In this document: positions 40,541 to 56,625 of the stretch, one piece after another
Numbering within the stretch: the first letter of the stretch is position 1
Layout: each line of letters opens with the position of its first letter
Assembly (NCBI RefSeq): GCF_947495665.1
Contig: NZ_CANLZV010000001.1
Coordinates: forward strand, 558,001-622,000
Direction of reading: 5' to 3'
Length of the DNA: 64,000 bases
From: an uncultured Sunxiuqinia sp.
Lineage (GTDB): Bacteria; Bacteroidota; Bacteroidia; Bacteroidales; Prolixibacteraceae
Made by a program: the position numbers and the translations under genes
Notes under the pieces: generated by a model
The model's database searches: none
What the model saw: only the letters and a program-made list of their open reading frames with translations
Told to the model about the DNA's origin: nothing

Positions 40541-43345
40541 CTAGCTCATTTTTTCAGCCAGAGCCTTGGCGGTATATGAGTCTGAGTTTTTTATCAAATC
40601 TTCCGGTGTTCCTTCAAATAAAATATGACCACCATTTTTACCTCCTTCAGGCCCTAAATCAATGATCCAATCGGCTGATTTAATAATCTCCAGATTGTGT
40701 TCAATGATGATGATACTGTGTCCTCGCGAAATAAGCGCGTTAAAGGAGTCCATCAGCTTTTTGATGTCGTGAAAGTGAAGGCCGGTGGTTGGCTCATCGA
40801 AAATAAACAGGGCAGGGGAGTCCTTCTCTTTTGATAGAAAGGCGGCCAGTTTTACCCGCTGGCTTTCTCCGCCCGACAAGGTTGAGGAGCTTTGTCCAAG
40901 CTTCACATAACCCAAGCCAACATCCTGTAAAGGTTGAAGCTTTTTGGCAATCTTTTTCTCAAAACTTCCTTTGAAACTGCTGAAAAACTCAATGGATTGG
41001 TTGACGGTCATTTCCAGGATGTCGTGGATGTTTTTGCCGTGAAGTTGCACTTCCAGTATCTCGTCTTTGAAACGCTTGCCATGACAGCTCTCGCATTGCA
41101 AGTGAATGTCGGCCATGAATTGCATTTCAACTTTGATTTCTCCCTCGCCCTGGCATTCTTCGCAGCGACCGCCATCAACATTGAATGAAAAATGGGAGGG
41201 TTTGAATCCCTGGTATTTCGAGGCTTGTTGTTCGGCAAACAGTTTTCGTATTTCATCATAGGCCTTCAGGTAGGTGACCGGATTAGACCGTGATGATTTC
41301 CCAATGGGATTTTGATCGACAAACTCAACCGACGTTAAACGGTTGAAATCCCCTTTGACCGTGTCGTGTTGCCCGGTTTTTTCGCCATAGCCTCCAAAAA
41401 TTTTGGCCACTGCCGGGTACAGGATGCGGCTGACTAAGGTGGATTTGCCGGAACCGCTGACACCGGTAACCACCGTCATGGTGTTGAGTGGGAACTTAAC
41501 GGAGACGTTTTTCAGGTTGTTTTCGCGTGCTCCTTTTATTTCGATGAAATTGTTCCATTTCCGACGTCGCTCGGGAATTTCAATCTTTTTAGTGCCATTC
41601 AGGTAGTCGGCGGTCAGGCTGTTTTGGGCTTGCAGCAGCTGTTTATGATTGCCCTGAAACACCAACTGGCCACCATGTATACCGGCTTTGGGGCCGATGT
41701 CGATAATTTCATCGGCAGCACGAATGATTTCCTCATCGTGCTCAACCACCAAAACGGTATTGCCAATTTTCTGCAGTTTTCGTAAAACGTTGATTAAGCG
41801 CTCGGTGTCTTTCGGATGAAGCCCGATACTGGGTTCATCTAAAATATAAAGCGAGCCGACCAAGCTTGATCCCAGCGAAGTGGCCAGGTTGATCCGCTGC
41901 GATTCGCCGCCGGAAAGCGTGCTTGACAGGCGGTTGAGGGTAAGATAACCCAAACCGACATCATCCAGAAAATTCAGACGATTACTGATTTCGATCAGAA
42001 TGCGTTTGGCAACTTGCGTCTCGTGCTCGTTAATGTCCAATTCTTTGAAGAATATTTTCAATTCATTAACAGGCAACAAAACCAAATCCTGAATAGAATA
42101 CCCTCCGACTTTGACATAGCCGGCTTCCTTTTTTAATCGCGTTCCGCGGCAGTCGGTGCAGTTCGTCTTTCCACGGTAGCGCGAAAGCATAACGCGATAC
42201 TGAATTTTGTAGCTTTTCGATTCCAGCATTTTAAAGAAGGCGTTTAACCCTTCAAAGTAACTGTTGCCGGTCCAAAGTAATTCCCGCTGTTCCTCGTTCA
42301 GTTCGTAATAAGGTTTGTGTATCGGAAAATTGAATGAGGCTGCATGCTGAATGAGTTCATATTTCCATTTTTGCATACTTTCGCCTTTCCAGCAGGCCAC
42401 GGCATCCTGATAGATGGAAAGCGATTTGTCCGGAATGACCAGATCTTCGTCAATTCCGATAACCTTGCCATAGCCCTCACAGGTGGGACAAGCGCCTACG
42501 GGATTGTTAAAGCTGAACAGGTGCTCGGAGGGTTCTTCAAATTCAAGACCATCGGCTTCAAACAAATTGGAAAACACGTGTTCCGTTGGTTGGTCTCCCT
42601 CATAGGTTTTAACAATTGCGGTTCCACGGCCTTCAAAAAAGGCCGTCTCCACTGAATCAGCCATGCGGCTTACATTGTCTTCGTCCTGGGAGGCTTGTAA
42701 CCTGTCTATAACAATGTTGCACTGCCCCGAGCAGAAATCTGCTTTCTGGTCGGCTATTAATTGATCGATTCGCTTAATTCCTTCGGGAGTTTCAATTCTT
42801 GAAAACCCTTGTTGCAGTAAAAGTTCAGCTTCTTCTTGCACTGTACGTCCGTTTTTGGTTGTCAGTGGTGAGCATATCAGTACGCGGGTGTCGGTTGGGT
42901 GAGTACAAATATAGTTGACCACATCGGTTACCCGGTGACGCTTAACTTCCTGGCCGGAAATGGGGGAATAGGTCTTGCCAATGCGGGCAAATAACAGCTT
43001 TAGGTAATCATAAATTTCGGTTGATGTTCCTACTGTAGAACGTGGATTTCGGGTGTTTACCTTTTGTTCGATGGCGATGGCCGGAGGAATTCCTTTGATG
43101 AAGTCAACCTCTGGTTTGTTGATTCGGCCAAGAAACTGCCGGGCATATGAAGACAGGCTTTCTACATACCGTCGTTGCCCTTCCGCATAAAGCGTGTCGA
43201 ATGCCAGCGATGATTTTCCGGAGCCTGAGAGTCCGGTAATAACCATAAGTTTGTTTCTGGGTATTTTGATTTCAACGTTTTGAAGGTTGTGAACCCGAGC
43301 CCCTTTGATATGTATTTCCTGAGTTGTTATTTTATTCTTTGCCAT
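40541..43345 (-). CDS. uvrA: UvrABC excinuclease subunit A
   Basis: A 934-residue DNA damage sensor of nucleotide excision repair, of full canonical length. Walker A motifs GLSGSGKSS and GVSGSGKST, signatures LSGGESQRINLA and LSGGESQRVKLA, and zinc modules CPTCEGYG, CTDCRGTR and CEECQGEG with CESCHGKR are all present. The UvrB-binding region between RSTVGTSTEI and FSFNNPVGACP is retained. The ATG at 43345 (MAKNKITTQ) is preferred over 43390. Comparison with the 761-residue paralog at 3274 shows what that copy has lost. Confidence 0.97.
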   Translation of the reverse strand: MAKNKITTQEIHIKGARVHNLQNVEIKIPRNKLMVITGLSGSGKSSLAFDTLYAEGQRRYVESLSSYARQFLGRINKPEVDFIKGIPPAIAIEQKVNTRNPRSTVGTSTEIYDYLKLLFARIGKTYSPISGQEVKRHRVTDVVNYICTHPTDTRVLICSPLTTKNGRTVQEEAELLLQQGFSRIETPEGIKRIDQLIADQKADFCSGQCNIVIDRLQASQDEDNVSRMADSVETAFFEGRGTAIVKTYEGDQPTEHVFSNLFEADGLEFEEPSEHLFSFNNPVGACPTCEGYGKVIGIDEDLVIPDKSLSIYQDAVACWKGESMQKWKYELIQHAASFNFPIHKPYYELNEEQRELLWTGNSYFEGLNAFFKMLESKSYKIQYRVMLSRYRGKTNCTDCRGTRLKKEAGYVKVGGYSIQDLVLLPVNELKIFFKELDINEHETQVAKRILIEISNRLNFLDDVGLGYLTLNRLSSTLSGGESQRINLATSLGSSLVGSLYILDEPSIGLHPKDTERLINVLRKLQKIGNTVLVVEHDEEIIRAADEIIDIGPKAGIHGGQLVFQGNHKQLLQAQNSLTADYLNGTKKIEIPERRRKWNNFIEIKGARENNLKNVSVKFPLNTMTVVTGVSGSGKSTLVSRILYPAVAKIFGGYGEKTGQHDTVKGDFNRLTSVEFVDQNPIGKSSRSNPVTYLKAYDEIRKLFAEQQASKYQGFKPSHFSFNVDGGRCEECQGEGEIKVEMQFMADIHLQCESCHGKRFKDEILEVQLHGKNIHDILEMTVNQSIEFFSSFKGSFEKKIAKKLQPLQDVGLGYVKLGQSSSTLSGGESQRVKLAAFLSKEKDSPALFIFDEPTTGLHFHDIKKLMDSFNALISRGHSIIIIEHNLEIIKSADWIIDLGPEGGKNGGHILFEGTPEDLIKNSDSYTAKALAEKMS

Positions 43346-43469
43346 CGACGTATCTCTATTTAGGCGGTAATAAATTTGTTTTTTTAGCAAAAAACCAGCA
43401 TTTTTACCTCGTGCAAAATTAAGAAATTGTTTTACTCACACCTAAAATAGATCGCCTATAGAAGAATTT

Positions 43470-45764: not shown

Positions 45765-45974
45765 ATGAGAAAAGTTTATGTTTGCCCCAAATGCGGAGGG
45801 AAAAAGCCCGAAGTTGATGAAATTCGAACAACCGGATCCGGGTTTACCAAGTATTTTAATATCCAAAACAGACGATTCACCGCAGTTTCTTGCACTGCCT
45901 GCGGATATACTGAGTTGTATAAGGGAGCTAAACTGCCGGGAGGGAGCAGCGTATTGGATTTTGTAACCAACTAA
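45765..45974 (+). CDS. Small zinc-ribbon protein (DUF2082-like)
   Basis: 69 residues with two CxxC pairs, CPKCGG near residue 8 and CTACGY near residue 44, separated by EVDEIRTTGSGFTKYFNIQN. The C-terminus (GGSSVLDFVTN) also fits the zinc-ribbon nucleic-acid-binding family DUF2082. The role is unknown. Likely part of the SPFH transcript, 74 bases after the Arc-like gene. Confidence 0.82.
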   Translation: MRKVYVCPKCGGKKPEVDEIRTTGSGFTKYFNIQNRRFTAVSCTACGYTELYKGAKLPGGSSVLDFVTN

Positions 45975-46289: not shown

Positions 46290-47015
46290 ATGTTTAAAGA
46301 AGCGGAAATAAATGATTGTGTAAATTGTGGATTAACCTGCTGCTTGAATTGTTTGCCTGAGGCAGAGTCCAGTATCTTCGAATGCCTGTCAAAGGAGGAT
46401 ATGGATTACCTGATGACAAGTCGGCGAAATGTAGTCTTTAATCCAGGTGAAACCATTATTAAGCAAAATACATCGACCACACACTTCGTATGCATGAAAA
46501 AAGGTTTAGCTAAGGTGGTTGCTGAAGGAAGTACGGGAAAAAATGTCATCATGCGCCTGATTTCTACCCATAATCTGGTGACAGCCGGAGGAGTAATTAG
46601 TGATGATATCCGGCACTTTACGGTTACCGCGTTAACAACGGTTGAATGTTGTTTTATTGACTCCAGTCGGTTAAATACGCTGCTTGCCCGCAATAGTCGC
46701 TTTGCTTATGAGCTTCTGAAATATAATAATAAGCAAAGTATTCAGATGTTGAATACTTTGATTGGTTTAACTCAGAAATACATGCCCGGTCGCGTGGCAG
46801 ACACCCTCCTTTACCTGAAGAATGAAATTTATAAAGCAAATCCTTTTCAGTATAAGCTGAGTAAGCAGGAATTTGCTGAAATGTCGGGGATGACAAAAGA
46901 GAGCTTTATTCGGAACATGAAAGAATTAGAGGTCTCAGGAATCATCTTGCAGCGACGTAATGAAATTGAGATTCTGAATGAGCCGGAGCTGATAAAAATC
47001 AGCAAAAACGGCTAA
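46290..47015 (+). CDS. Crp/Fnr-family regulator with an N-terminal cysteine cluster
   Basis: A 241-residue regulator: a cyclic-nucleotide-binding-like beta roll (NPGETIIKQNTSTTHFVCMK) and a C-terminal winged helix (KLSKQEFAEMSGMTKESFIR). The N-terminus holds cysteines at 10, 13, 17, 18, 21 and 32 (DCVNCGLTCCLNC), more than the usual Bacteroidota Crp leader. As in FNR, these could bind a 4Fe-4S cluster and sense oxygen or nitric oxide; this is inference. It is followed at once by a TTGAC-N4-GTCAA palindrome and the multihaem cytochrome genes, which it most likely controls. Confidence 0.9.
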   Translation: MFKEAEINDCVNCGLTCCLNCLPEAESSIFECLSKEDMDYLMTSRRNVVFNPGETIIKQNTSTTHFVCMKKGLAKVVAEGSTGKNVIMRLISTHNLVTAGGVISDDIRHFTVTALTTVECCFIDSSRLNTLLARNSRFAYELLKYNNKQSIQMLNTLIGLTQKYMPGRVADTLLYLKNEIYKANPFQYKLSKQEFAEMSGMTKESFIRNMKELEVSGIILQRRNEIEILNEPELIKISKNG

Positions 47016-47029
47016 TTGACATATGTCAA
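47016..47029. promoter_or_regulatory. Perfect palindrome TTGACATATGTCAA, probable Crp/Fnr site
   Basis: It begins at the base after the regulator's stop codon and lies 125 bases ahead of the first cytochrome gene. TTGAC-N4-GTCAA is close to the FNR consensus TTGAT-N4-ATCAA. A weak -7-like TACTTTTA at 47085-47092 would put it about 70 bases upstream of the start of transcription. Confidence 0.6.
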
Positions 47030-47153
47030 CTTTTCCCTCGAAATATATCACTGCTTAGGCTTTAGAACTTAGTGCTTTCGGTTATACTTTTATAATCAAA
47101 CTAAAGAGTTGGAAGGAATTCCAAATTACATGAATGTACTAAATTTTAAGCGT

Positions 47154-48200
47154 ATGAAACTTAGAGAAATAACCAAGTTATTGTTTGTTGCCTCGCTCGT
47201 ATTATTACTTATTCCAGCGTGTGTTAAAGAAGGACCTCAGGGACTTCCTGGGGTAGATGGTGAAGACGGTCTTGATGGTGCTGATGGTGCTGATGGACAT
47301 GTAACCTGCCTGGTTTGCCACGGCGGAGAGAATATTGAAGCAATTCAAGGGCAATTTGCAATGTCAGTCCACAAAAGTGGAGTAAATGCAGTTGCTTATG
47401 CAGGTGCCAGAGCCGATTGTGCTCAATGTCATTCGCATGAAGGTTTTGTTCAGTTTGCTGAGTTCGGTGAGGTTTTTGGAGCCATTACCAGTCCTAATGC
47501 ATGGGAATGTGGGACTTGTCATGGTTTGCATAATTCATTCGAGTCCGGAGATTATGCCCTTCGTTTGAGTGATCCTGTTAATCCGATCTTCGATGAAACT
47601 GTAACAATGGATTTGATGGGCAATAGTAATTTATGTGCAAACTGTCACCAGTCTCGTCGTGCAGAACCTGCGATTGATAAACCAGGTGATACCTACAGAA
47701 TTACAAATACTCATTATGGACCGCACCACGGAGCTCAGGCCAATGTTGTTGCTGGTGTTGGTTTTGCCGAAATTGAAGGGTCAACAGAATACCCAACAGC
47801 AGGTTCTAACTTACACTTAGCTCAGGCTTCTTGTGTTGGATGTCATATGGGTGATTTTGTGGACGGACAGGGAGGTCACTCCTGGAATCCGAGTGTGAAT
47901 GCTTGTAATGAATGTCATGATGCAGATGCGACTGATTTCAATTACGGTGGTATTCAAACAGATATTCAAGATAAATTGGTTGAATTAAGAGACTTGTTAA
48001 TTGCCGCTGGCGTTGTGGCAGGTGATGATGCAACAGGTTATCATCCGGTAGTTGGAGAACACTCAATGGTGAGAGCCCGTGCATTCTTTAACTGGGCTGG
48101 CTTGGACGAAGATCGTAGTTTAGGCGTGCACAACCCTAAATATGTGAGAGCTTTGTTGAATAACTCCATCGAAGCATTAGAAGCAGAAGCTGTTAATTAA
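47154..48200 (+). CDS. Hexahaem c-type cytochrome lipoprotein with collagen-like linker
   Basis: About 348 residues from the ATG at 47154, the best start for the lipoprotein signal (LLFVASLVLLLIPAC). Upstream in-frame ATGs at 47109 and 47130 are possible. Seven Gly-X-Y triplets follow the lipid cysteine (GPQGLPGVDGEDGLDGADG), then six haem motifs: CLVCH, CAQCH, CGTCH, CANCH, CVGCH and CNECH. Many additional histidines (for example NTHYGPHHG) could be axial ligands. Lipid anchoring plus a stiff linker suggests a cytochrome displayed at the outer membrane. It is the first structural gene after the Crp/Fnr regulator. Confidence 0.85.
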   Translation: MKLREITKLLFVASLVLLLIPACVKEGPQGLPGVDGEDGLDGADGADGHVTCLVCHGGENIEAIQGQFAMSVHKSGVNAVAYAGARADCAQCHSHEGFVQFAEFGEVFGAITSPNAWECGTCHGLHNSFESGDYALRLSDPVNPIFDETVTMDLMGNSNLCANCHQSRRAEPAIDKPGDTYRITNTHYGPHHGAQANVVAGVGFAEIEGSTEYPTAGSNLHLAQASCVGCHMGDFVDGQGGHSWNPSVNACNECHDADATDFNYGGIQTDIQDKLVELRDLLIAAGVVAGDDATGYHPVVGEHSMVRARAFFNWAGLDEDRSLGVHNPKYVRALLNNSIEALEAEAVN

Positions 48201-48220
48201 AAAATACTCCATTTAAAGAA

Positions 48221-48252
48221 AAAAGCTTCTTCTCCAAACAGAAGCTTTTTTC
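48221..48252 (+). terminator. Intra-cluster hairpin after the hexahaem gene
   Basis: AAAAGCTTCT/AGAAGCTTTT stem, 9-base loop and T-run, 20 bases past the stop codon. It probably works as a partial terminator. Confidence 0.8.
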
Positions 48253-48281
48253 TTATCGAGATAAGCTAAACACCACGCAAA

Positions 48282-48662
48282 ATGAAAAAAATTAAATTAT
48301 TCCTGATTATTGCAGTTCTTGGCTTAGCAATTAGCGCATGTGAGTATGATTTTATTGCTCAGGAAGAGCTTCCCGATATTCCCGTCGATGAAGATGTAAG
48401 TTTTTCTGAAGTCATTCTCCCCATTTTTACTTCACGTTGTGCTGAATGTCATCAAGCCGGAGGGCAAGCTCCTGATTTAACTGCAGACAAAGCCTATCAG
48501 AGCATTAATACGGCTAAATACATTGATACCGCTAACCCCGAATCAAGCTTGATTTATTCCTATGTGGCTCCCGGAGCATCAACGCACGGGCACCGGCAAT
48601 ATACAGCAGCCCAGGCCCAGTTCGTTTTGGTTTGGATTCAGCAGGGAGCGATGAATAATTAG
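48282..48662 (+). CDS. Monohaem cytochrome c-like lipoprotein
   Basis: 126 residues with lipoprotein signal MKKIKLFLIIAVLGLAISAC and one haem motif in ILPIFTSRCAECHQAGGQAP. The rest (DLTADKAYQSI, SLIYSYVAPG, VLVWIQQGA) is the pattern of small c-type domains often fused to surface or PSD1-type proteins. It is a candidate electron carrier between the hexahaem lipoprotein and the periplasm. Confidence 0.82.
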   Translation: MKKIKLFLIIAVLGLAISACEYDFIAQEELPDIPVDEDVSFSEVILPIFTSRCAECHQAGGQAPDLTADKAYQSINTAKYIDTANPESSLIYSYVAPGASTHGHRQYTAAQAQFVLVWIQQGAMNN

Positions 48663-48685
48663 TGAAAATCAAAAGAAATCATACT

Positions 48686-49627
48686 ATGAAGAGTAAAATA
48701 TTATATATCCTTTTAGGTCTGTTTGTTTGCACTAATTTGTTTGCTCAGGAAGAAACGACTGAAGTTAAAGAGAAGGATAAACCGGTACGGTTTGCCTGGG
48801 AAAGCGGAATGTTAATTGACCAGCAAACTTCGATGGTGCCAACCGTGAAAACCCTGGAAATGGTCATTCAGCATAAATTTGGTAGCATCGACAATGGCAG
48901 CTCCGATTTATGGGGGATTTATGCGCCTGCTGGTAACATCCGGTTAGGATTGAACTACGTTGTTGCAAACAATGTGCAAATCGGTTGGGGAATCTCGCGC
49001 AGGAACATGTATAACGACTTCAACATTAAGTGGACCATTCTGGAGCAAACGCGTAAAAATAAAGTGCCCGTTTTTGTCACAGTCTTTGCCAATACCGCTA
49101 TTGACGGGATGGATCGTGACGATCTTGAGCTTTATAATTACGACATGCCTTATGCCAGGTCCCGCTTTAATTTGAAGTCTCGCATGTCTTACTTTGCTGA
49201 GTTAATTATTGGACGTAAAGTGACCAATGCTTTGTCGGTGCAAGGTGCAGTAAGCTTTTCGCATGCAAACTTTGTTCCCCAGTGGCAGGATCACGACCGG
49301 GTTGGACTACACTTTAACGGTCGTTTGAAAGTAAGTCCCCAGGGAGCTATCATCTTTAACTTTGATGCTCCTCTGCAAATTGATGATCTCTCAGAACAAA
49401 ATCCGGGCTGGAATGCGGAGAACACGCCGGGGTGGGATGGACCTTATCATCCGGAGCCAAACCTGTCATTCGGTTATGAAGTGTCAACAAGTACGCATGC
49501 TTTCCAAATTTATATGGGTAATTCTCAGGCCATGTTGTTGCAAGACATGATGATTAACAATTATAATGGCATTGATTTTGATAACTTTGCTATAGGGTTT
49601 ACAATTACCCGGTTATGGAGTTTTTAA
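48686..49627 (+). CDS. DUF5777-type outer-membrane beta-barrel
   Basis: About 313 residues from the ATG at 48686, where the signal peptide (MKSKILYILLGLFVCTNLFA) starts. Family phrases include FAWESGMLIDQQT, VIQHKFGSIDNG, LWGIYAPAGNIRLGLNY and a C-terminal NNYNGIDFDNFAIGFTITRL with terminal Trp-Ser-Phe typical of barrels. DUF5777 barrels recur beside c-type cytochrome genes in Bacteroidota. A sheath for the cytochrome lipoproteins, like a porin-cytochrome conduit, is an attractive but unproved role. Confidence 0.82.
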   Translation: MKSKILYILLGLFVCTNLFAQEETTEVKEKDKPVRFAWESGMLIDQQTSMVPTVKTLEMVIQHKFGSIDNGSSDLWGIYAPAGNIRLGLNYVVANNVQIGWGISRRNMYNDFNIKWTILEQTRKNKVPVFVTVFANTAIDGMDRDDLELYNYDMPYARSRFNLKSRMSYFAELIIGRKVTNALSVQGAVSFSHANFVPQWQDHDRVGLHFNGRLKVSPQGAIIFNFDAPLQIDDLSEQNPGWNAENTPGWDGPYHPEPNLSFGYEVSTSTHAFQIYMGNSQAMLLQDMMINNYNGIDFDNFAIGFTITRLWSF

Positions 49628-49650
49628 TTGACATTTTAAAATTGAGAGAT

Positions 49651-50073
49651 ATGAAAAAGTACAGAAACCTATTGACATTTTTTGTCATCGTATTTGTCGG
49701 CGGAATTTTACTGTCGTTTGTAACCGTTCAAGATAAAGTAAAACCTGCTCCCTGGGATATTCCAGAAAAATATCAGAAAATGGAAAATCCTTATGTCGGA
49801 GATGAATCACTGGAGCGCGTAGGAAAGATTCTCTACATCAAGCACTGTCGTTCCTGCCATGGAAACAATGGCGAAGGTGACGGACCAAAGGCTGCTAGCA
49901 TGAAAACAGAGATCTTGTCATTCACTTCAGAGAAGTTCAAAGAAGAGGCCGATGGCGTTGTTTATTTCCAGTCTATCATTGGACGGGACGAAATGCCTAA
50001 TTACGAAAGCAAAATCCCGGAAGAGGAAGATCGCTGGGCATTGGTTAACTACATTAAAGCAATGAAGAAGTAA
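49651..50073 (+). CDS. Monohaem cytochrome c
   Basis: About 140 residues from the ATG at 49651 (MKKYRNLLTFFVIVFVGGIL signal or anchor). A single haem motif lies in KHCRSCHGNNGEGDGPKA, and DEMPNYESKIPEEEDRWALV is the usual C-terminal methionine-ligand region of class I cytochromes. The in-frame start at 49615 would overlap the barrel gene. A soluble or membrane-tethered periplasmic shuttle is likely. Confidence 0.88.
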   Translation: MKKYRNLLTFFVIVFVGGILLSFVTVQDKVKPAPWDIPEKYQKMENPYVGDESLERVGKILYIKHCRSCHGNNGEGDGPKAASMKTEILSFTSEKFKEEADGVVYFQSIIGRDEMPNYESKIPEEEDRWALVNYIKAMKK

Positions 50074-50082
50074 GAACCAGAT

Positions 50083-50110
50083 AAGCCGGAGGTAGCGACT
50101 TCCGGCTTTT
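50083..50110 (+). terminator. Weak intra-cluster hairpin
   Basis: AAGCCGGAGGT/ACTTCCGGCTT with an AGCG loop and four T. It lies between the monohaem and heptahaem genes and may attenuate transcription. Confidence 0.6.
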
Positions 50111-50123
50111 AAACTTCACTAAA

Positions 50124-51068
50124 ATGTCAATTTTAATCAGGAGTATTTTACTCACCGCATTTCTTTCAGTTGGGATCGTATCCAGTGGGCAGGGTAAGGA
50201 AATGCCCGCCGAAAATAGTCATTGTTTAAGTTGTCATGCCAAGCAAACCTACTCTTTTTATAACGATTGGTTAGAGGTAGAAACTAAAAGGATGATGAAT
50301 CCTTTCTATATTTTAGACTCTACACTGATGGTGGCAGGTGTTCATGGCGGATTTAGCTGCACGGATTGCCATTCGCCCGATTACGAAACTTATCCACACA
50401 ACGCCGAACTCAAACTGGAACCGCTGGCCACATGCCTCGACTGTCATGGTGGCGATGAGACCTATGCCGATTATCAGTTTGATAAAATTGAAGAAGAGTT
50501 TCACAAAAGTGTACACTTCCAGCAAAGCGGCGAGAGCTTTACCTGTTCCAAATGTCATAATCAGCATTACTACCGTGCTACCGCACGAACAAGCAATCAG
50601 GTGTCTGAAATTGTTTCTTATAATAACAACATGTGTTTGTCGTGCCATGATGATGTGTTGAAATACCAGACCGTATCATCAGGCGAAAATCCACAGCTGA
50701 GCCAGGTACACGATTGGTTGCCAAACCAAAAGCTGCATTTCGAAAATGTTCGATGCATCGAATGTCATACCGTGGTTGTTGACTCATTCTTGGTGTCGCA
50801 TAATATTTTACCCAAAGAAGAAGCTTTGAGAAACTGCAATGACTGTCATTCATCGAACTCTATGTTGAAAGCATCGTTGTATAAATATGAAAATCTGCAG
50901 GCGCGTTCCGAAGAAGGAAAAATTGGTGCCATTCTTACCAATGAAGCCTATGTGATTGGTGCCAACCAGAATCCGTTGCTGAAACTGTTAAGCTTCATTA
51001 TCTTTGGATTGGCTGTACTCGGAATCGCTATTCACTGGATTTTCAGAATCGTTAAAAAAAGTAAGTAA
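50124..51068 (+). CDS. Membrane-anchored heptahaem cytochrome c
   Basis: 314 residues: an N-terminal signal, seven haem motifs (CLSCH, CTDCH, CLDCH, CSKCH, CLSCH, CIECH, CNDCH) and a C-terminal membrane helix (LLSFIIFGLAVLGIAIHWIF) ending in basic residues. The haem domain must lie outside the cytoplasmic membrane. The next gene, two bases downstream, encodes a cytochrome b, so the two probably form a quinol-oxidising, haem-relay pair like other cytochrome b/multihaem modules. Confidence 0.88.
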   Translation: MSILIRSILLTAFLSVGIVSSGQGKEMPAENSHCLSCHAKQTYSFYNDWLEVETKRMMNPFYILDSTLMVAGVHGGFSCTDCHSPDYETYPHNAELKLEPLATCLDCHGGDETYADYQFDKIEEEFHKSVHFQQSGESFTCSKCHNQHYYRATARTSNQVSEIVSYNNNMCLSCHDDVLKYQTVSSGENPQLSQVHDWLPNQKLHFENVRCIECHTVVVDSFLVSHNILPKEEALRNCNDCHSSNSMLKASLYKYENLQARSEEGKIGAILTNEAYVIGANQNPLLKLLSFIIFGLAVLGIAIHWIFRIVKKSK

Positions 51069-51070
51069 TT

Positions 51071-51727
51071 ATGACTGCTGAGAATAACAAAATATACCTT
51101 TACCCGCTTTGGCTTAGAATCTGGCATGGCGTTAATGCTTTGGGGATTATTCTATTGATTTTAACCGGAATTCGCTTGCAGTATTCCGAACTAAGCATGC
51201 TTCCGATGGACTTTGGATTGGCCGTTCAAATGCACAATATCGTAGGGGTAATTGTAACGCTAAGCTACTTCGTATTTTTTATTGGGAACTTGGTTACCCC
51301 GAACAAAAAATACTATAAAATAAAGCCCAAAGGCTTGGTTAAGCGATTGACCAAACAAATGAATTATTACATTTCAGGCTTGTTTAAAGGCGAAGAAAGT
51401 CCGTTTCCGATTTCTGAAAAAAGAAAGTTTAATCCCTTGCAAAAGTATGCCTACATCTTTGTGATGTATTGCTTTGTTCCCTTGGCAATTGTTACCGGAA
51501 TTGCTTTGCTTTTTCCTGAATTAATAATTGAACAGGTGTACTCGGTTAGTGGGATTTTTCTGACCGCTGTTTTGCACGGTTCTGTTGGGTTTTTAATTTC
51601 TATATTTCTGATCATTCACTTGTATGTGGCTTCCATTGGAAAAAATCCGCTGGATAACTTCCGAAGCATCATCAATGGATATCATGATGTTCATCCAACA
51701 GAAAAGGACAAAAAGAAGGAGAAGTAG
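51071..51727 (+). CDS. Cytochrome b561/thiosulfate-reductase-type cytochrome b subunit
   Basis: 218 residues with four membrane helices. Probable haem-b ligands are the histidines in LRIWHGVNALGI (helix 1), AVQMHNIVGV (helix 2), TAVLHGSVGF and FLIIHLYVASIG. This pattern fits the prokaryotic cytochrome b561/hydrogenase b-subunit family, which exchanges electrons with the quinone pool. Two bases separate it from the heptahaem gene, so coupling is almost certain. Confidence 0.88.
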   Translation: MTAENNKIYLYPLWLRIWHGVNALGIILLILTGIRLQYSELSMLPMDFGLAVQMHNIVGVIVTLSYFVFFIGNLVTPNKKYYKIKPKGLVKRLTKQMNYYISGLFKGEESPFPISEKRKFNPLQKYAYIFVMYCFVPLAIVTGIALLFPELIIEQVYSVSGIFLTAVLHGSVGFLISIFLIIHLYVASIGKNPLDNFRSIINGYHDVHPTEKDKKKEK

Positions 51728-51853
51728 CCTGCCGGAAACGCGTTTTTTGATAATGGGATTTTGATTTGGTATAAGGTCGCTCAGGGTTATAACAGATCCT
51801 AAGGCGTCTGGATATTTGTAAAAGGATTTGCATTCACTTTTAAAACAATCTCC

Positions 51854-53356
51854 ATGAAATTACCACAGTCCGTCAGGAATTTAACTTCGGTTATTGGAGC
51901 GTCAATTGCACTGATAAGCTTACTCATCATTCTGTTCTTATTTATAATCTCAGCCATCTTTGACATTGGCAGTTCCTACCTGGGCATTTTTATCTACATC
52001 GCTTTGCCCATGGTGCTGGTTGTGGGCTTAATTTTAATTCCAATTGGGGTTCTCAAAGAGAAAAATCGCTTAAAAAAGCACCCGGACGAAGCTCATGTAA
52101 AGGATTGGCCGATTATTGATTTCAACCAGACTTCGGTGCGTAATGCTTCCATCATCTTCGTGGCTGGTACAATCTGTTTTCTGATCTTGTCAGCTATCGG
52201 AAGTTATGAAGCCTTTCACCTAACCGAGTCGGATGAATTCTGTGGAAAATTGTGTCACCAGGTTATGGAGCCAGAGTATACTGCTTATCAGGAATCGGCT
52301 CACGAACGGGTAGGTTGTGTGGAGTGCCATGTCGGTTCGGGGGCCGGTTGGTATGTGAAAAGTAAAATGTCGGGTTTGTACCAGGTGTATTCGGTGCTGT
52401 TTAACAAATACCCCAGACCAATCGAAACTCCGATTCATAGTCTGCGGCCGGCGCGCGAAACTTGCGAAGAATGTCACTGGACAGAGAAATTTTATGCCCG
52501 CAAGATCAACACCAAAAAGTCGTACCTGGCCGATGGAAGCACCACGGAGTGGGACATTCACCTGATGATGAAAACCAGTGCTACTTACAGCGCACAAGGC
52601 CTTCAGGAAGGCATTCACTGGCACATCAATCCCGATATTAAAATTGAATATCGGGCGGTGGACGAAGGACGTGATACCATTCCCTGGGTTCGCTATACCA
52701 ACCTGAAAACTGGTGAAGTTAAAGTTTACCGGGATGAAACGGTGGCAATGTCAGACTCGGAGTTGGAAACAGTGGAATTACGGACCATGGATTGTATCGA
52801 TTGTCATAACCGTCCTTCGCACAACTATTTGTCTCCTGCCAACTTTATCGATGATTACATTACTGCCGGTGAAATTTCCAGGGAGCTGCCAGACATTAAG
52901 CTTGTGGCGATGGATGCTCTGAGTTCGGAATATCCAACGGTGGACAGTGCCATGAATGCGATTGACGCTTATGCCAAGGAGTATTACGAAATTATGTATC
53001 CGGAAGTCATGACTGATCAGAAAGCGCTATACGATCAGGCAATTCAGGCAATTAAAACAGGTTATCAGAAGAATATATTTCCGGTGATGAAGGTAAACTG
53101 GACGGTGTATCCAAACCATCTGGGGCACCTTGAAACAACGGGGTGTTATCGTTGTCACAACGATCGTCATGAAACAACGCAGGGCGATGTTATTTCGCGC
53201 GATTGTAACCTGTGTCATGATATTCTGGCCCAGGGAACTGCCGACCAACTTGTTTATGGAACATCTGCCAGTCCGTTGGAATTTGAACATCCGGTTGATA
53301 TCAATGAAAAGTGGCGTACAACATTCTGTTCCGATTGTCATTTTAGTTTGTATTGA
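51854..53356 (+). CDS. NapC/NirT-like heptahaem cytochrome with CX3CH motif
   Basis: 500 residues. Two N-terminal membrane helices and a third at about 95-115 precede seven haem motifs: CGKLCH (unusual CX3CH), CVECH, CEECH, CIDCH, CYRCH, CNLCH and CSDCH, the last close to the C-terminus. The stretch from CGKLCH to CVECHVGSG has the spacing and tone of NapC/NirT quinol dehydrogenases (CHQVMEPEY). No CxxCK motif, so it is not NrfA. It may be a second quinol-linked entry point or a terminal module of unknown acceptor. A terminator follows. Confidence 0.85.
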   Translation: MKLPQSVRNLTSVIGASIALISLLIILFLFIISAIFDIGSSYLGIFIYIALPMVLVVGLILIPIGVLKEKNRLKKHPDEAHVKDWPIIDFNQTSVRNASIIFVAGTICFLILSAIGSYEAFHLTESDEFCGKLCHQVMEPEYTAYQESAHERVGCVECHVGSGAGWYVKSKMSGLYQVYSVLFNKYPRPIETPIHSLRPARETCEECHWTEKFYARKINTKKSYLADGSTTEWDIHLMMKTSATYSAQGLQEGIHWHINPDIKIEYRAVDEGRDTIPWVRYTNLKTGEVKVYRDETVAMSDSELETVELRTMDCIDCHNRPSHNYLSPANFIDDYITAGEISRELPDIKLVAMDALSSEYPTVDSAMNAIDAYAKEYYEIMYPEVMTDQKALYDQAIQAIKTGYQKNIFPVMKVNWTVYPNHLGHLETTGCYRCHNDRHETTQGDVISRDCNLCHDILAQGTADQLVYGTSASPLEFEHPVDINEKWRTTFCSDCHFSLY

Positions 53357-53420
53357 TCAGAATATTTGATTATTTTGGAGCTGGATCGTTGAAGTAAAAT
53401 AGAATTTGAAAAAGATCGTA

Positions 53421-53457
53421 ATTACTTCAGCCTTACATGAGGTTGGAGTAATTTTTT
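53421..53457 (+). terminator. Terminator after the NapC-like gene
   Basis: ATTACTTCAGCCT pairs with AGGTTGGAGTAAT (two G-U pairs) around a 6-base loop and is followed by six T. The CcsBA gene downstream therefore needs its own promoter or read-through. Confidence 0.85.
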
Positions 53458-53505
53458 GTTAAGAGGAAAGATGAACTAGTAAGTTACTACTTAAGCTTGT
53501 GAAGA

Positions 53506-56500
53506 ATGAAAAAACTAAAGTCTGCGTTGTTTTCCATGTTAACCAGCTCTTGCCTGGTCGTTATATTTGGGGTAGCCATTGCATATGCTACATTTATCGA
53601 AAATGATTATGGCACCCAAACTGCAAAAATCTTAGTTTACAATGCTTGGTGGTTCAATATTTTGTTGGCATTTACAGCATTCAACCTGGTAGGCGGCTTG
53701 TTCTACTACAAGGCTTTTCAGCTGAAACGTTGGAGCATGGTGCTTTTTCACCTGGCTTTTCTTGTTATTCTGGTTGGAGCGGGTATTACCCGTTTTTACA
53801 GTTACGAAGGCATGATGCATATTCGGGAAGGACAGGCTTCGAATCAACTGATATCCACCAATACTTTTATACAACTTGAAGCTTCCACAGCTGAAGCAAA
53901 CAGCCAGGAAGACTGGTCGGTGATGTTTTCACCTTACACCCGAAACAATTTTGATAAATCGCTGGAAATTGGAAGCCAGGAATTGGAAATTGAGGTACTT
54001 GACTATGTTTCTTCAGCGGTTGAAAACATTGTTGCAGATGAAGGAGGACGGCCTATGCTCTCTTTTATCCTGGTTAATCGGAATACCTCGCGCGATGATG
54101 TTGTGTTGGAGCTAAACGAGGAAATTACTCGAAATAACTTTCGGGTTAGTTTTGAAGGCGAAAACACAAATGCGTCCATTTATTTGAAGCGCTCGGCTGA
54201 TGGTCTTCTGCTGAAAGCAAAAGATAGCATTCATGTGGTTGCCATGACTGGCAACGTGGAGCAAACCGTTGCTCCGGGAGAAGAAATCCCGCTGAAAGGG
54301 CAGGGCATGTACCAATTAGGCAGCTATATTTTTGCCATGAAAGGGTATTACCCATTTGCCCGCAAAGTGTTGTCGCGTGTTACCGGAGCGGCAGCCAAGC
54401 AAGCCAGCGATGCCATTATGGTAAACTTGAAACTGGCTGATCAGCAAAAACAAGTAGCAGTATTTAAAAACTCGGGAGAGCAGGCAAAAACCACGCAAAC
54501 TCGCCTGGGAGATGTGCATGTAAACGTGGGGTTCGGACCCAAATTAATTGAGCTTCCCTTTAAAATCCACCTGCGCGATTTTCAGCTTGAACGCTATCCG
54601 GGAAGCATGAGTCCTTCTTCGTATGCCAGCGAAGTAACGCTTATTGATAGCCGCAACCAGCTTGAAATGCCTTATCGGATTTTCATGAACAACATTCTGG
54701 ACTACGATGGTTATCGTTTTTTCCAATCTTCCTATGATACGGACGAAAAGGGAACGGTTCTTTCGGTGAGCTACGATTATTTAGGAACGATGGTCACTTA
54801 CATTGGTTATTTTCTGATGACCTTGGGAATGGTTGCGACCTTTTTTAATAAGAAAAGTCGTTTCCAGTCGCTTTTGCGTTCCAGCTCCCGTTTAAAAGCG
54901 TTGAAGAAGAAAAGCTTTGCCGGCCTGTTTGCTGCAGCCTTATTCATCTTGCCCACGGTGGTTAATGCTCAAAATGATAACCTGGTTAAAATTGACAAGG
55001 ATCATTTGAAGCGGTTTGAAACCTTGCTGGTGCAGGATACCAAGGGACGCGTAGAGCCGGTGAATACACTGGCTTCCGAAGTTATGCGTAAGTTGAATAA
55101 GAAAAATACCTTTAAAGGCTTGAGCGCTTCAGAAGTGTTTTTAGGCATGAGCGCCCGTCCTGCGGCCTGGAGAAATGTACCCATTATTCGGATCAATAAC
55201 AGCGAACTGCGCAAGCAGCTGGGATTTCGGGACGAATATGTTACTTTCAACCAAATGCTGGACCCGAACACCGGCGTTTACAAGCTGCAGCAACTGGTGG
55301 ATGCCACCTATCAAAAGCAACCTACTCAACGCAATAAGTACGATAAGGAAATCATCAATGTGGATGAGCGTATGAATATTTGTTACCAGATTTTTCAGGG
55401 AGATTTTCTCAAGGTATTTCCCCTGGAGAATGATGCGAATAACAAATGGGTGGGAGAGAAGGAATATTATAAAAACCCGGCTAATGAAGGGCGTGATGAA
55501 CGTTTGTTGACCGGTTATTTTCAGGCGGTAAACGAAGCCATCAGCCGAGGCAACTTCGGGTTGGCCGATCAAAAGCTCGCAGCCCTGAAAGAATTTCAGC
55601 AGACCCATGGCAACGAAATTATGCCAAGCCAGACGAAAATAAAGTGGGAAATCCGCTATAACAACTGGAATATTTTTGGATGGCTGTCCAAAATCTGTGG
55701 CGTGGTGGGCTTCCTGCTGCTAATTATTCACCTGCTCGGTATTTTCAACGAAAAACTAAAGCTGAAAAAAATATTGAGGGCAGGAACCTGGCTGGTTGCT
55801 GTTGTGTTTGCAGCCTATACTGCAGGATTGGCCTTGCTTTGGTACATTGCCGGGCATGCTCCCTGGAGTAATGGCTACGAAACCATGCTTTACATTGGTT
55901 GGGCTTCGTTGCTGACGGGTTTTGTCTTTCTGAAACGATCGCAGATTACCCTGGCCGTTACCACCATTTTGGCTTCGCTGATTTTAATGGTGGCGGGCAT
56001 GAGCTGGATGAATCCGGAAATTACGAACCTGGTGCCAGTGTTGAAATCGTATTGGCTGATTGTGCATGTGGCTGTTATTACGGCAAGCTATGGCTTCTTA
56101 GGGGTGGCTGCGCTGGTTGGCTTTCTGAACCTGATTATTATGACCTTGCGTAAGCCCGGGAACCTGAAAAATACCTCATTTACCATTGTGGAGTTGGCCA
56201 TCATTATTGAATTAAGCATGATTGTCGGGTTGATCCTTCTAACCGTAGGAGCATTTATTGGTGGCGTATGGGCCAATGAATCCTGGGGGCGCTACTGGGG
56301 CTGGGATCCAAAAGAAACTTGGGCTTTGGTTACCATCCTGGTATATTCTTTCATCATTCACCTTCGGAAAGTACCGGGTATGTACAATCACTTTGTGCTG
56401 AGTGCACTGGCTTTGGCCGGCTTTAGCTCGGTGCTGATGACTTTCTTTGGAGTGAACTATTATTTGTCGGGAATGCACTCCTATGCTCAGGGCGATGCAC

Positions 56501-56625
56501 CTGCCGTTCCGGGCTTTGTATATGTTGCTGTTGCGGTGGTGTTTGTATCGATCTTTTTGGCAGCTCGGTCAGAAAATAAATATGGCGATGCTGAAAAAGT
56601 GGTGAAGTTGGAGGCTAAAGACTAA
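53506..56625 (+). CDS. ccsBA: Cytochrome c synthase, fused ResB-CcsA (system II)
   Basis: A 1039-residue inner-membrane protein that exports haem and attaches it to CxxCH motifs. The N-terminal half is ResB-like: early membrane helices, a large periplasmic beta domain, and a helix near 440. A Bacteroidota-type periplasmic insert follows (residues about 480-715). The C-terminal CcsA part has GHAPWSNGYETM, the WWD motif WGRYWGWDPKETWALV and the late histidine in LSGMHSYAQGDAP. Placement beside 22 haem motifs explains its function. Whether it serves this cluster alone cannot be told. Confidence 0.95.
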   Translation: MKKLKSALFSMLTSSCLVVIFGVAIAYATFIENDYGTQTAKILVYNAWWFNILLAFTAFNLVGGLFYYKAFQLKRWSMVLFHLAFLVILVGAGITRFYSYEGMMHIREGQASNQLISTNTFIQLEASTAEANSQEDWSVMFSPYTRNNFDKSLEIGSQELEIEVLDYVSSAVENIVADEGGRPMLSFILVNRNTSRDDVVLELNEEITRNNFRVSFEGENTNASIYLKRSADGLLLKAKDSIHVVAMTGNVEQTVAPGEEIPLKGQGMYQLGSYIFAMKGYYPFARKVLSRVTGAAAKQASDAIMVNLKLADQQKQVAVFKNSGEQAKTTQTRLGDVHVNVGFGPKLIELPFKIHLRDFQLERYPGSMSPSSYASEVTLIDSRNQLEMPYRIFMNNILDYDGYRFFQSSYDTDEKGTVLSVSYDYLGTMVTYIGYFLMTLGMVATFFNKKSRFQSLLRSSSRLKALKKKSFAGLFAAALFILPTVVNAQNDNLVKIDKDHLKRFETLLVQDTKGRVEPVNTLASEVMRKLNKKNTFKGLSASEVFLGMSARPAAWRNVPIIRINNSELRKQLGFRDEYVTFNQMLDPNTGVYKLQQLVDATYQKQPTQRNKYDKEIINVDERMNICYQIFQGDFLKVFPLENDANNKWVGEKEYYKNPANEGRDERLLTGYFQAVNEAISRGNFGLADQKLAALKEFQQTHGNEIMPSQTKIKWEIRYNNWNIFGWLSKICGVVGFLLLIIHLLGIFNEKLKLKKILRAGTWLVAVVFAAYTAGLALLWYIAGHAPWSNGYETMLYIGWASLLTGFVFLKRSQITLAVTTILASLILMVAGMSWMNPEITNLVPVLKSYWLIVHVAVITASYGFLGVAALVGFLNLIIMTLRKPGNLKNTSFTIVELAIIIELSMIVGLILLTVGAFIGGVWANESWGRYWGWDPKETWALVTILVYSFIIHLRKVPGMYNHFVLSALALAGFSSVLMTFFGVNYYLSGMHSYAQGDAPAVPGFVYVAVAVVFVSIFLAARSENKYGDAEKVVKLEAKD

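Follow-up and report, generated by a model that had tools for sequence, protein, structure and literature searches.

A recurring multihaem cytochrome locus of Sunxiuqinia with a probable role in anaerobically regulated electron export

In a survey of quinol oxidases of extracellular electron transfer (EET), ImcH of Geobacter and its associates was described as a protein of 495-519 amino acids with three transmembrane motifs, an adjoining atypical CX3CH haem motif and six CX2CH motifs; the survey gave one ImcH homologue and five CbcL homologues for the Bacteroidetes (PMC6295460). OcwA was reported to be structurally related to NrfA and to act on the surface of a Gram-positive bacterium as the terminal reductase of iron oxides and electrodes (PMC6703420). 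In Labilibaculum strain 59.16B, Fe(III) oxides were reported to receive 2-3% of the electrons from glucose, with no observed reduction of nitrate, nitrite or sulfate, and Mn(IV) reduction was reported for strain 59.10-2M (PMC5760507). The describers suggested NrfHA, and the genes of this 'fermentative type' of metal reduction were still to be specified (PMC5760507); a later paper pointed to what was presumably a cytochrome c gene (PMC9765461). Here, a nine-gene cytochrome locus was analysed in a 64,000-nucleotide stretch of an uncultured Sunxiuqinia sp. (assembly GCF_947495665.1, contig NZ_CANLZV010000001.1, positions 558,001 to 622,000; hereafter the window, numbered from its first letter). 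The locus probably serves anaerobically regulated electron export, with menaquinol as the donor and with acceptors that lie at the outer membrane or beyond it. Minerals of Fe(III)/Mn(IV), or comparable oxidants outside the cell, would be the most likely acceptors. Its quinol modules and its hexahaem lipoprotein resemble known EET parts; their combination, the stalk of the lipoprotein and the accompanying small barrel were not found described in one open-licence library of papers.

Nine intact open reading frames (ORFs) lay co-directionally on the + strand at 46290-56625, with the coordinates that a first-pass annotation had given. They encoded a Crp/Fnr-family regulator, a hexahaem lipoprotein (HEX6), a monohaem lipoprotein (MONO1), a DUF5777 beta-barrel, a monohaem cytochrome c (MONO2), a heptahaem protein (HEP7), a cytochrome b (CYTB), a NapC-type heptahaem protein (NAPC7) and the synthase CcsBA. 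Haem motifs were counted in the translations: six in HEX6, one each in MONO1 and MONO2, seven each in HEP7 and NAPC7, and none in the barrel, CYTB and CcsBA. The earlier total of 22 (6+1+1+7+7) is reached as 21 CxxCH and one CxxxCH, and therefore holds only if the atypical motif at NAPC7 residue 130 is counted. Pfam matches comprised Crp/HTH domains, an MtrC/F-type domain (HEX6), DUF5777, Cytochrom_C, a cytochrome c7-like domain (HEP7), Ni_hydr_CYTB, NapC/NirT, and ResB with CcsA. All NCBIfam models scored below their cut-offs on these nine proteins. The assembly comprised 4.73 Mb in 70 contigs, with 99.95% completeness and 1.88% contamination.

Loci of relatives were collected as the best 80 of 332 ranked on HEP7 similarity, from which records nearest the window's genome are possibly missing; the presence of other genes in this set is thus conditional on HEP7. 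The ORFs come from a simple script, and a gene may be hidden where they overlap. A second set was picked by NAPC7 and comprised 20 order regions, which represent 20 of the 22 genomes with strong NAPC7 matches besides the window's. The two sets share at least two contigs (L083 and L084 are apparently L216 and L191). HEP7 was detected in 103 of 140 genomes of the family at E ≤0.001 (100 strong matches and three weak, G571, G578 and G603). In a phylum sample it was detected in 47/390 genomes at E 0.001, nine of them strong (E <1e-40, window's genome included). Closest named relatives by HEP7 identity were Sunxiuqinia dokdonensis (86%), another Sunxiuqinia (85%) and S. elliptica (82%).

Upstream sequence of 4 kb or more was available for 62 named loci, and in 51 of these HEX6, MONO1 and DUF5777 stood directly before HEP7, or before MONO2 and HEP7. 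The gene order on which the first-pass annotation had staked its proposal, to be looked for across Bacteroidota, therefore recurs in Bacteroidales. HEP7 was present in 8 of the 20 NAPC7-picked regions, and all eight had MONO1, DUF5777 and CYTB homologues nearby. The locus is beyond chance: haem counts are kept, and the gene order recurs in relatives.

NAPC7 (51854-53356, +; 500 amino acids) fits an ImcH-like inner-membrane quinol oxidase, matched on published traits (PMC6295460) rather than on the Geobacter sequence. A simple hydropathy scan gave hydrophobic stretches at residues 7-50, 51-70 and 93-121, behind which the CX3CH motif lies at residue 130, together with six CX2CH motifs. Length, three N-terminal membrane segments, the CX3CH at the membrane, the six CX2CH motifs and the N-terminal similarity to NapC/NirT are all as in ImcH of Geobacter sulfurreducens; NAPC7 differs in sitting in a cytochrome operon headed by an FNR box. 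CX3CH was present in 54/54 NAPC7 relatives of the named loci, and six CX2CH in 53/54, the exception being a shortened ORF. A sequence search of solved structures with NAPC7 returned none at E 0.01.

Strong NAPC7 relatives (E <1e-80) were found in 61/395 genomes of a phylum sample and 23/149 of an order sample, both counts including the window's genome. None occurred in phylum-sample genomes marked as the same class or the same order. A quick tree of 114 proteins placed the window's protein beside three Sunxiuqinia rows, the same three as the closest relatives by HEP7 (support 97-99), within Prolixibacteraceae, and two further rows labelled Sunxiuqinia elsewhere. Horizontal transfer of ImcH was not supported, as the Bacteroidales rows need one change only (branch support 69). 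Among ten named genomes, seven had a strong NAPC7 match, Gaoshiqia a weak NrfH-like one, and Labilibaculum filiforme and Tangfeifania no match. ImcH as an essential part of the system is weakened by those named genomes that have no strong match. Elsewhere in the window's genome, two proteins carried a NapC/NirT tetrahaem domain (L221:9029-10570, contig C5, at approximately 314.5 kb; L222:7911-9443, contig C6). The C5 protein also carried an FGE-sulfatase (SUMF1-like) domain (Pfam E 3.6e-41), and the C6 protein was similar by eye; a quinol-oxidase-type domain with a sulfatase-modifying-type domain is an odd pairing.

The second putative quinol module is formed by HEP7 (50124-51068, +), a heptahaem domain with a C-terminal hydrophobic helix, and CYTB (51071-51727, +; PF01292 Ni_hydr_CYTB, E 3e-25). 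Seven haem motifs were kept in 79/80 HEP7 relatives. Of 81 proteins, 80-81 had each of the seven motif and seven non-motif histidines, and 79 also had His304, which lies in the C-terminal helix. Four CYTB histidines were present in 77/77 aligned proteins. The HEP7 profile gave two multihaem matches among solved structures (E 3.6e-7 and 5.9e-7). CYTB directly followed HEP7 in 77/80 loci, and in two of the other three HEP7 was the last ORF. The gap between the genes was 2 base pairs (bp) in the window, with a median of 2 bp in relatives, and in genome G066 the two are fused as a single 554-amino-acid protein. The CbcL/MtoC/MtrH architecture is a CX2CH domain and, behind it, a HydC/FdnI-like cytochrome b that has its haem ligands; HEP7 and CYTB are thus best read as a split CbcL-type complex, with HEP7 as its predicted c-type and CYTB as its predicted b-type half. 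They would be relatives of CbcL/MtoC/MtrH rather than members: the multihaem c domain and PF01292 cytochrome b are two genes here, with seven haems. A separate 19-haem gene of the fused type is also present in sister loci.

HEX6 (47109-48200, +) is the proposed terminal reductase at the outer membrane. Its listed start codon is TTG, with further in-frame ATGs at 47130 and 47154. Two lipoprotein cytochromes had been claimed for the locus, and a lipobox-like pattern was indeed found in 63/66 HEX6 proteins (at least one of them spurious, in the shortened L172) and in 59/70 MONO1 proteins. Relatives of HEX6 had six haem motifs in 52/65 cases and five in 12/65. A profile search of solved structures ranked OcwA of Thermincola potens (6i5b) first (E 2.3e-17), followed by octahaem nitrite reductase, 6qvm (an S-layer cytochrome from Carboxydothermus ferrireducens), NrfA and MtrC. 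The AlphaFold2 model (pLDDT 82) gave the same first match in Foldseek: OcwA, at E 3e-5, with a TM-score of 0.49 on the query and 18% identity, was the sole entry at E ≤0.001, with NrfA and 6qvm next. The Pfam model of MtrC/MtrF domain II/IV scored above cut-off (E 3.6e-11) and Cytochrom_C552 below it (E 1.7e-4).

The HEX6 model shows the NrfA-superfamily fold and three C-terminal helices of OcwA, at a moderate TM-score. It has six haems rather than nine, and is a predicted lipoprotein with a collagen-like stalk in a Gram-negative lineage. HEX6 is therefore likened to OcwA in its probable working and is not classed as OcwA. The first-pass annotation had recognised no known Mtr, Omc or Nrf family in the locus; this is not supported, since the quinol modules fit the ImcH and CbcL types and HEX6 belongs by predicted fold to the OcwA/NrfA superfamily.

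The nitrite reductases among these matches bear on the main rival to electron export, a periplasmic chain to a soluble acceptor. HEX6 would then be a periplasm-facing NrfA-related reductase (of nitrite, hydroxylamine, a sulfur oxyanion or peroxide), and nothing would leave the cell. OcwA itself was reported to be slowly active on nitrite (PMC6703420), which suits this reading, as do the Cytochrom_C552 match and the profile matches to NrfA and octahaem nitrite reductases. The best NCBIfam model for CYTB, thiosulfate reductase cytochrome b (below cut-off), and a DUF5777 barrel too small for an Mtr-type conduit count on the same side. The HEX6 translation, however, contains no CxxCK, the motif of the NrfA catalytic haem. 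Ligands were counted in six-haem proteins of 300-402 amino acids only (49 of 66 rows), and seven non-motif histidines were present in at least 42/49 aligned rows, enough for six bis-histidine haems. The missing CxxCK and the conserved distal histidines together favour an electron wire over an open nitrite-type active site. As in NrfHA, a NapC-type quinol oxidase and an NrfA-superfamily haem protein are encoded together, but HEX6 has no CxxCK, and NrfHA is encoded separately in the same genome. HEX6 as a nitrite reductase was rejected on these two grounds.

A molybdoenzyme partner was also considered. No PF00384 molybdopterin oxidoreductase was found in the window's genome (sister-locus neighbours were only partly annotated), whereas 11/14 control genomes have one. 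In a draft of this completeness, its absence removes the nitrate, dimethyl sulfoxide (DMSO), thiosulfate, polysulfide and arsenate reductases of the superfamily as partners in this organism, and molybdoenzyme-linked thiosulfate, nitrate or DMSO respiration was rejected. ImcH and CbcL homologues are moreover tied to extracellular acceptors in the published survey (PMC6295460). A periplasmic soluble acceptor is on this evidence unlikely, and export is preferred.

Between the lipid cysteine and the haem domain, HEX6 carries a collagen-like stalk of eight consecutive G-X-X triplets (47232-47303, +). Six to ten consecutive triplets followed the lipid cysteine in 65/66 HEX6 proteins, with exactly eight in 34. 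At least five triplets were found in none of the other proteins searched (MONO1 0/69, MONO2 0/52, HEP7 0/80, DUF5777 0/72, NAPC7 0/54). By its collagen-like pattern, the stalk could make HEX6 a trimer. After the lipid cysteine, HEX6 proteins begin C-V/T-K-E and MONO1 proteins often C-E-Y-D; for Capnocytophaga surface lipoproteins, the export signal was described as C-X-K-(D/E)2 (PMC5080379).

MONO1 (48282-48662, +; one CxxCH) gave sub-threshold Pfam matches only to cytochrome c. Its gene abuts that of the predicted outer-membrane beta-barrel (48662-49627, +; DUF5777, PF19089 E 5e-62). The AlphaFold2 model of the barrel (pLDDT 82) had 12 strands, and its best Foldseek matches among solved structures were small channels and translocators, namely FapF, NanC and a COG4313 channel (TM-scores on the query 0.44-0.48), with the wider barrels OmpG and FadL also among the matches. 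A barrel of 12-strand size cannot enclose a multihaem cytochrome as MtrB does. No MtrB/PioB homologue (PF11854) was found in the window's genome. The first-pass annotation had compared the locus with porin-cytochrome conduits such as MtrCAB. The likeness extends to a lipoprotein multihaem cytochrome near a barrel gene and to the MtrC/MtrF domain match in HEX6; the comparison fails on size, with a 12-stranded model matching small channels, and an Mtr-type conduit was rejected for want of a large barrel and of a PF11854 match. The predicted barrel is too narrow for an Mtr-type sheath.

DUF5777 is also found away from this locus, in 115/296 genomes of the phylum. Thirty loci elsewhere in Bacteroidota (L103-L132), taken from among the best-scoring matches, were inspected for neighbours: a small CxxCH gene was present in 22/30, a YceI-like gene in 23/30 and both in 18/30. 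No natural fusion of MONO1 to DUF5777 was seen, with CxxCH in 0/30 of the DUF5777 ORFs from these loci. By this association, MONO1-DUF5777 may be a module of wider use that was recruited to the locus. A stronger version holds that DUF5777 and MONO1 form an outer-membrane module of other function that merely lies in the operon, so that the electron path ends at HEX6; this is compatible with the other readings. The wide occurrence and the YceI-like neighbours speak for it. Within the present locus, however, DUF5777 accompanies HEP7 in 72/80 loci, the YceI-like motif was found in 0/80, and MONO1 lay at most 50 bp from the barrel gene in 67/68 adjacent pairs. We lean against a separate function, while giving it some weight. 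DUF5777 itself was not found mentioned in the open-licence library.

The regulator (46290-47015, +; Pfam cNMP_binding and HTH_Crp_2) has an FNR-like cysteine set, from which an iron-sulfur cluster sensor is predicted. In 60 aligned regulators, C10 was present in 59, C13 in 55 and C121 in 59; C17 (31/60), C18 (34/60) and C21 (30/60) fall where 25 rows were gapped. The N-terminal cysteines, the sensor-domain cysteine and a box at a target were thus all found, and every FNR model of NCBIfam scored below cut-off. Directly behind the regulator's stop codon, and preceding the cytochrome genes, lies the FNR box TTGACATATGTCAA, a perfect palindrome (47016-47029, no strand). The pattern TTGAYNNNNRTCAA occurs once in the window, at this box; 0.48 occurrences are expected there by chance, and at least one was found in 39/100 shuffles. 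In relatives, it occurred within 200 bp upstream of HEX6 in 37/64 cases; for unlabelled genes of these loci the figure was 3/496 upstream regions. Among the remaining locus genes, it preceded the regulator in 9/58, MONO1 in 3/65, NAPC7 in 4/54 and CcsBA in 0/33. With up to one mismatch allowed, the counts were 51/64 for HEX6 and 28/496 for the other upstream regions. The contrast is large, but no probability is attached to this enrichment because of the non-independence of the relatives. The claim of a single Crp/Fnr regulator was borne out and is refined to an FNR-like one with a box behind its own stop codon.

MONO2 (49615-50073, +) is a class-I monohaem cytochrome c (Cytochrom_C E 1.6e-9) with a hydrophobic N-terminal segment and Met127 conserved in 53/53, and is a predicted periplasmic carrier. 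It alternates with a 19-haem protein between lineages. Flanks of 4 kb or more upstream and 5.5 kb or more downstream were available for 49 loci. With broken 19-haem genes scored as absent, 26 of these had MONO2 without the 19-haem gene, 16 the reverse, one both and six neither (Fisher p 3e-7, ignoring kinship). The 19-haem protein, examined in L184, combines c7/c3 domains with a PF01292 cytochrome b in a CbcL-like manner and is accompanied by a tetrahaem c554-type protein. Full-length 19-haem and tetrahaem copies were seen in Draconibacterium sediminis (L183) and D. mangrovi (L184). In D. orientale, a 181-amino-acid remnant of the 19-haem gene was seen at L187:11691-12236, and the tetrahaem gene was shortened (L187:14065-14436). 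Locus L085 (6599-9777) carried a Tat-type iron-sulfur protein, an NrfD-type membrane protein and a 297-amino-acid protein without a Pfam match, beside a MONO2-like cytochrome; L092:12599-13570 encoded an iron-sulfur protein similar to that of L085. By its predicted domains, the L085 set adds a third type of quinone module, and no molybdoenzyme is encoded between its genes.

CcsBA (53506-56625, +) is a fused cytochrome c synthase with ResB and CcsA parts (PF01578 E 2.8e-37, PF05140 E 3.1e-22). It had been called a dedicated synthase. The gene is present as claimed, and dedication is a supposition, given a second CcsBA elsewhere in the window's genome (G000:C7).

Electron export would proceed as follows. 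The FNR-like regulator would act on the FNR box ahead of the cytochrome genes, and CcsBA would attach the haems. Menaquinol would be oxidised by two inner-membrane modules, the ImcH-like NAPC7 and the split CbcL-type HEP7-CYTB, which may serve acceptors of different potential by analogy with Geobacter. Electrons would pass to the periplasmic haem domains and to the small monohaem carrier MONO2, or, in other lineages, to the 19-haem CbcL-like and tetrahaem c554-type proteins in its place. They would then reach the lipoprotein cytochromes MONO1, encoded right beside the barrel, and HEX6. The stalk would hold the HEX6 haem domain off the membrane, presumably at the cell surface, for outer-sphere electron transfer to the acceptor. 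The earlier interpretation is thus partly supported: its path from quinol through the periplasm to the outer membrane is supported, and its porin-cytochrome comparison and absence of known families are not.

An outward direction of flow is presumed here. In the reverse case the locus would serve the oxidation of Fe(II) or Fe(0), or electron uptake, and quinone would be reduced by electrons from outside the cell. Iron-corroding members of the Prolixibacteraceae are known and count for this possibility. So does the report that CbcL/MtoC/MtrH relatives occur in Fe(II) oxidisers as well as in reducers (PMC6295460). Against uptake stands the FNR box, which points to oxygen control and, in the usual case, to expression when oxygen is absent. 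A cultured carrier also speaks against it: Labilibaculum filiforme 59.16B (L207) carries the locus genes, rearranged, and was reported to reduce Fe(III) (PMC5760507). Inward flow is very improbable on this evidence.

Several observations weigh against electron export as set out above. Nitrite reductases are also among the matches of HEX6, NrfA by profile and fold and the octahaem type by profile. The DUF5777 barrel, with 12 predicted strands, is too narrow to surround a cytochrome, and no MtrB/PioB homologue was found in the genome. The MONO1 homologues in L093 (ORF 3) and L097 (ORF 2) stand beside DUF5777 without a CxxCH; the barrel's partner may hence manage without haem in some lineages. 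The HEX6 start fits the Capnocytophaga export signal only in part, and MONO1 likewise. Taken alone, the FNR box in the window falls short of significance. NAPC7 was found in only 54/80 loci, some of which end at contig ends, and in 12/20 order regions it occurred without a nearby HEP7, some of these on short contigs. In L. filiforme, no NAPC7 match was found in the genome at E 0.001, and HEX6 lies downstream, on the other strand. If the locus serves iron reduction there, ImcH would be dispensable and HEP7-CYTB would have to be the quinol module.

Two neighbouring features lie close to the locus. A UvrA-like ABC-ATPase protein of 949 amino acids is encoded at 40541-43390 (-). A small zinc-ribbon-like ORF with two CxxC pairs lies at 45765-45974 (+), between an SPFH gene and the regulator.

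A wider proposal is that the locus represents a widespread extracellular-respiration machine of the Bacteroidota's own. It would work without MtrAB, with ImcH- and CbcL-type modules, a stalked and perhaps trimeric OcwA-like HEX6, and electrons passing through the DUF5777 barrel with MONO1, and would underlie metal reduction in Labilibaculum. We hold this proposal in its entirety to be doubtful. Labilibaculum together with 'multiheme' was not found in the open-licence library. If the proposal is true, electrons would cross the outer membrane by a route of a new kind, a small 12-stranded barrel coupled to a monohaem lipoprotein, and the locus would supply the missing genes for the Fe(III)/Mn(IV) reduction of Labilibaculum and its relatives. 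As it stands, the locus raises the sharp question of how electrons get past the outer membrane when no large barrel is there to carry them, and it is a specific candidate for the genes of iron and manganese mineral reduction in the Bacteroidota.

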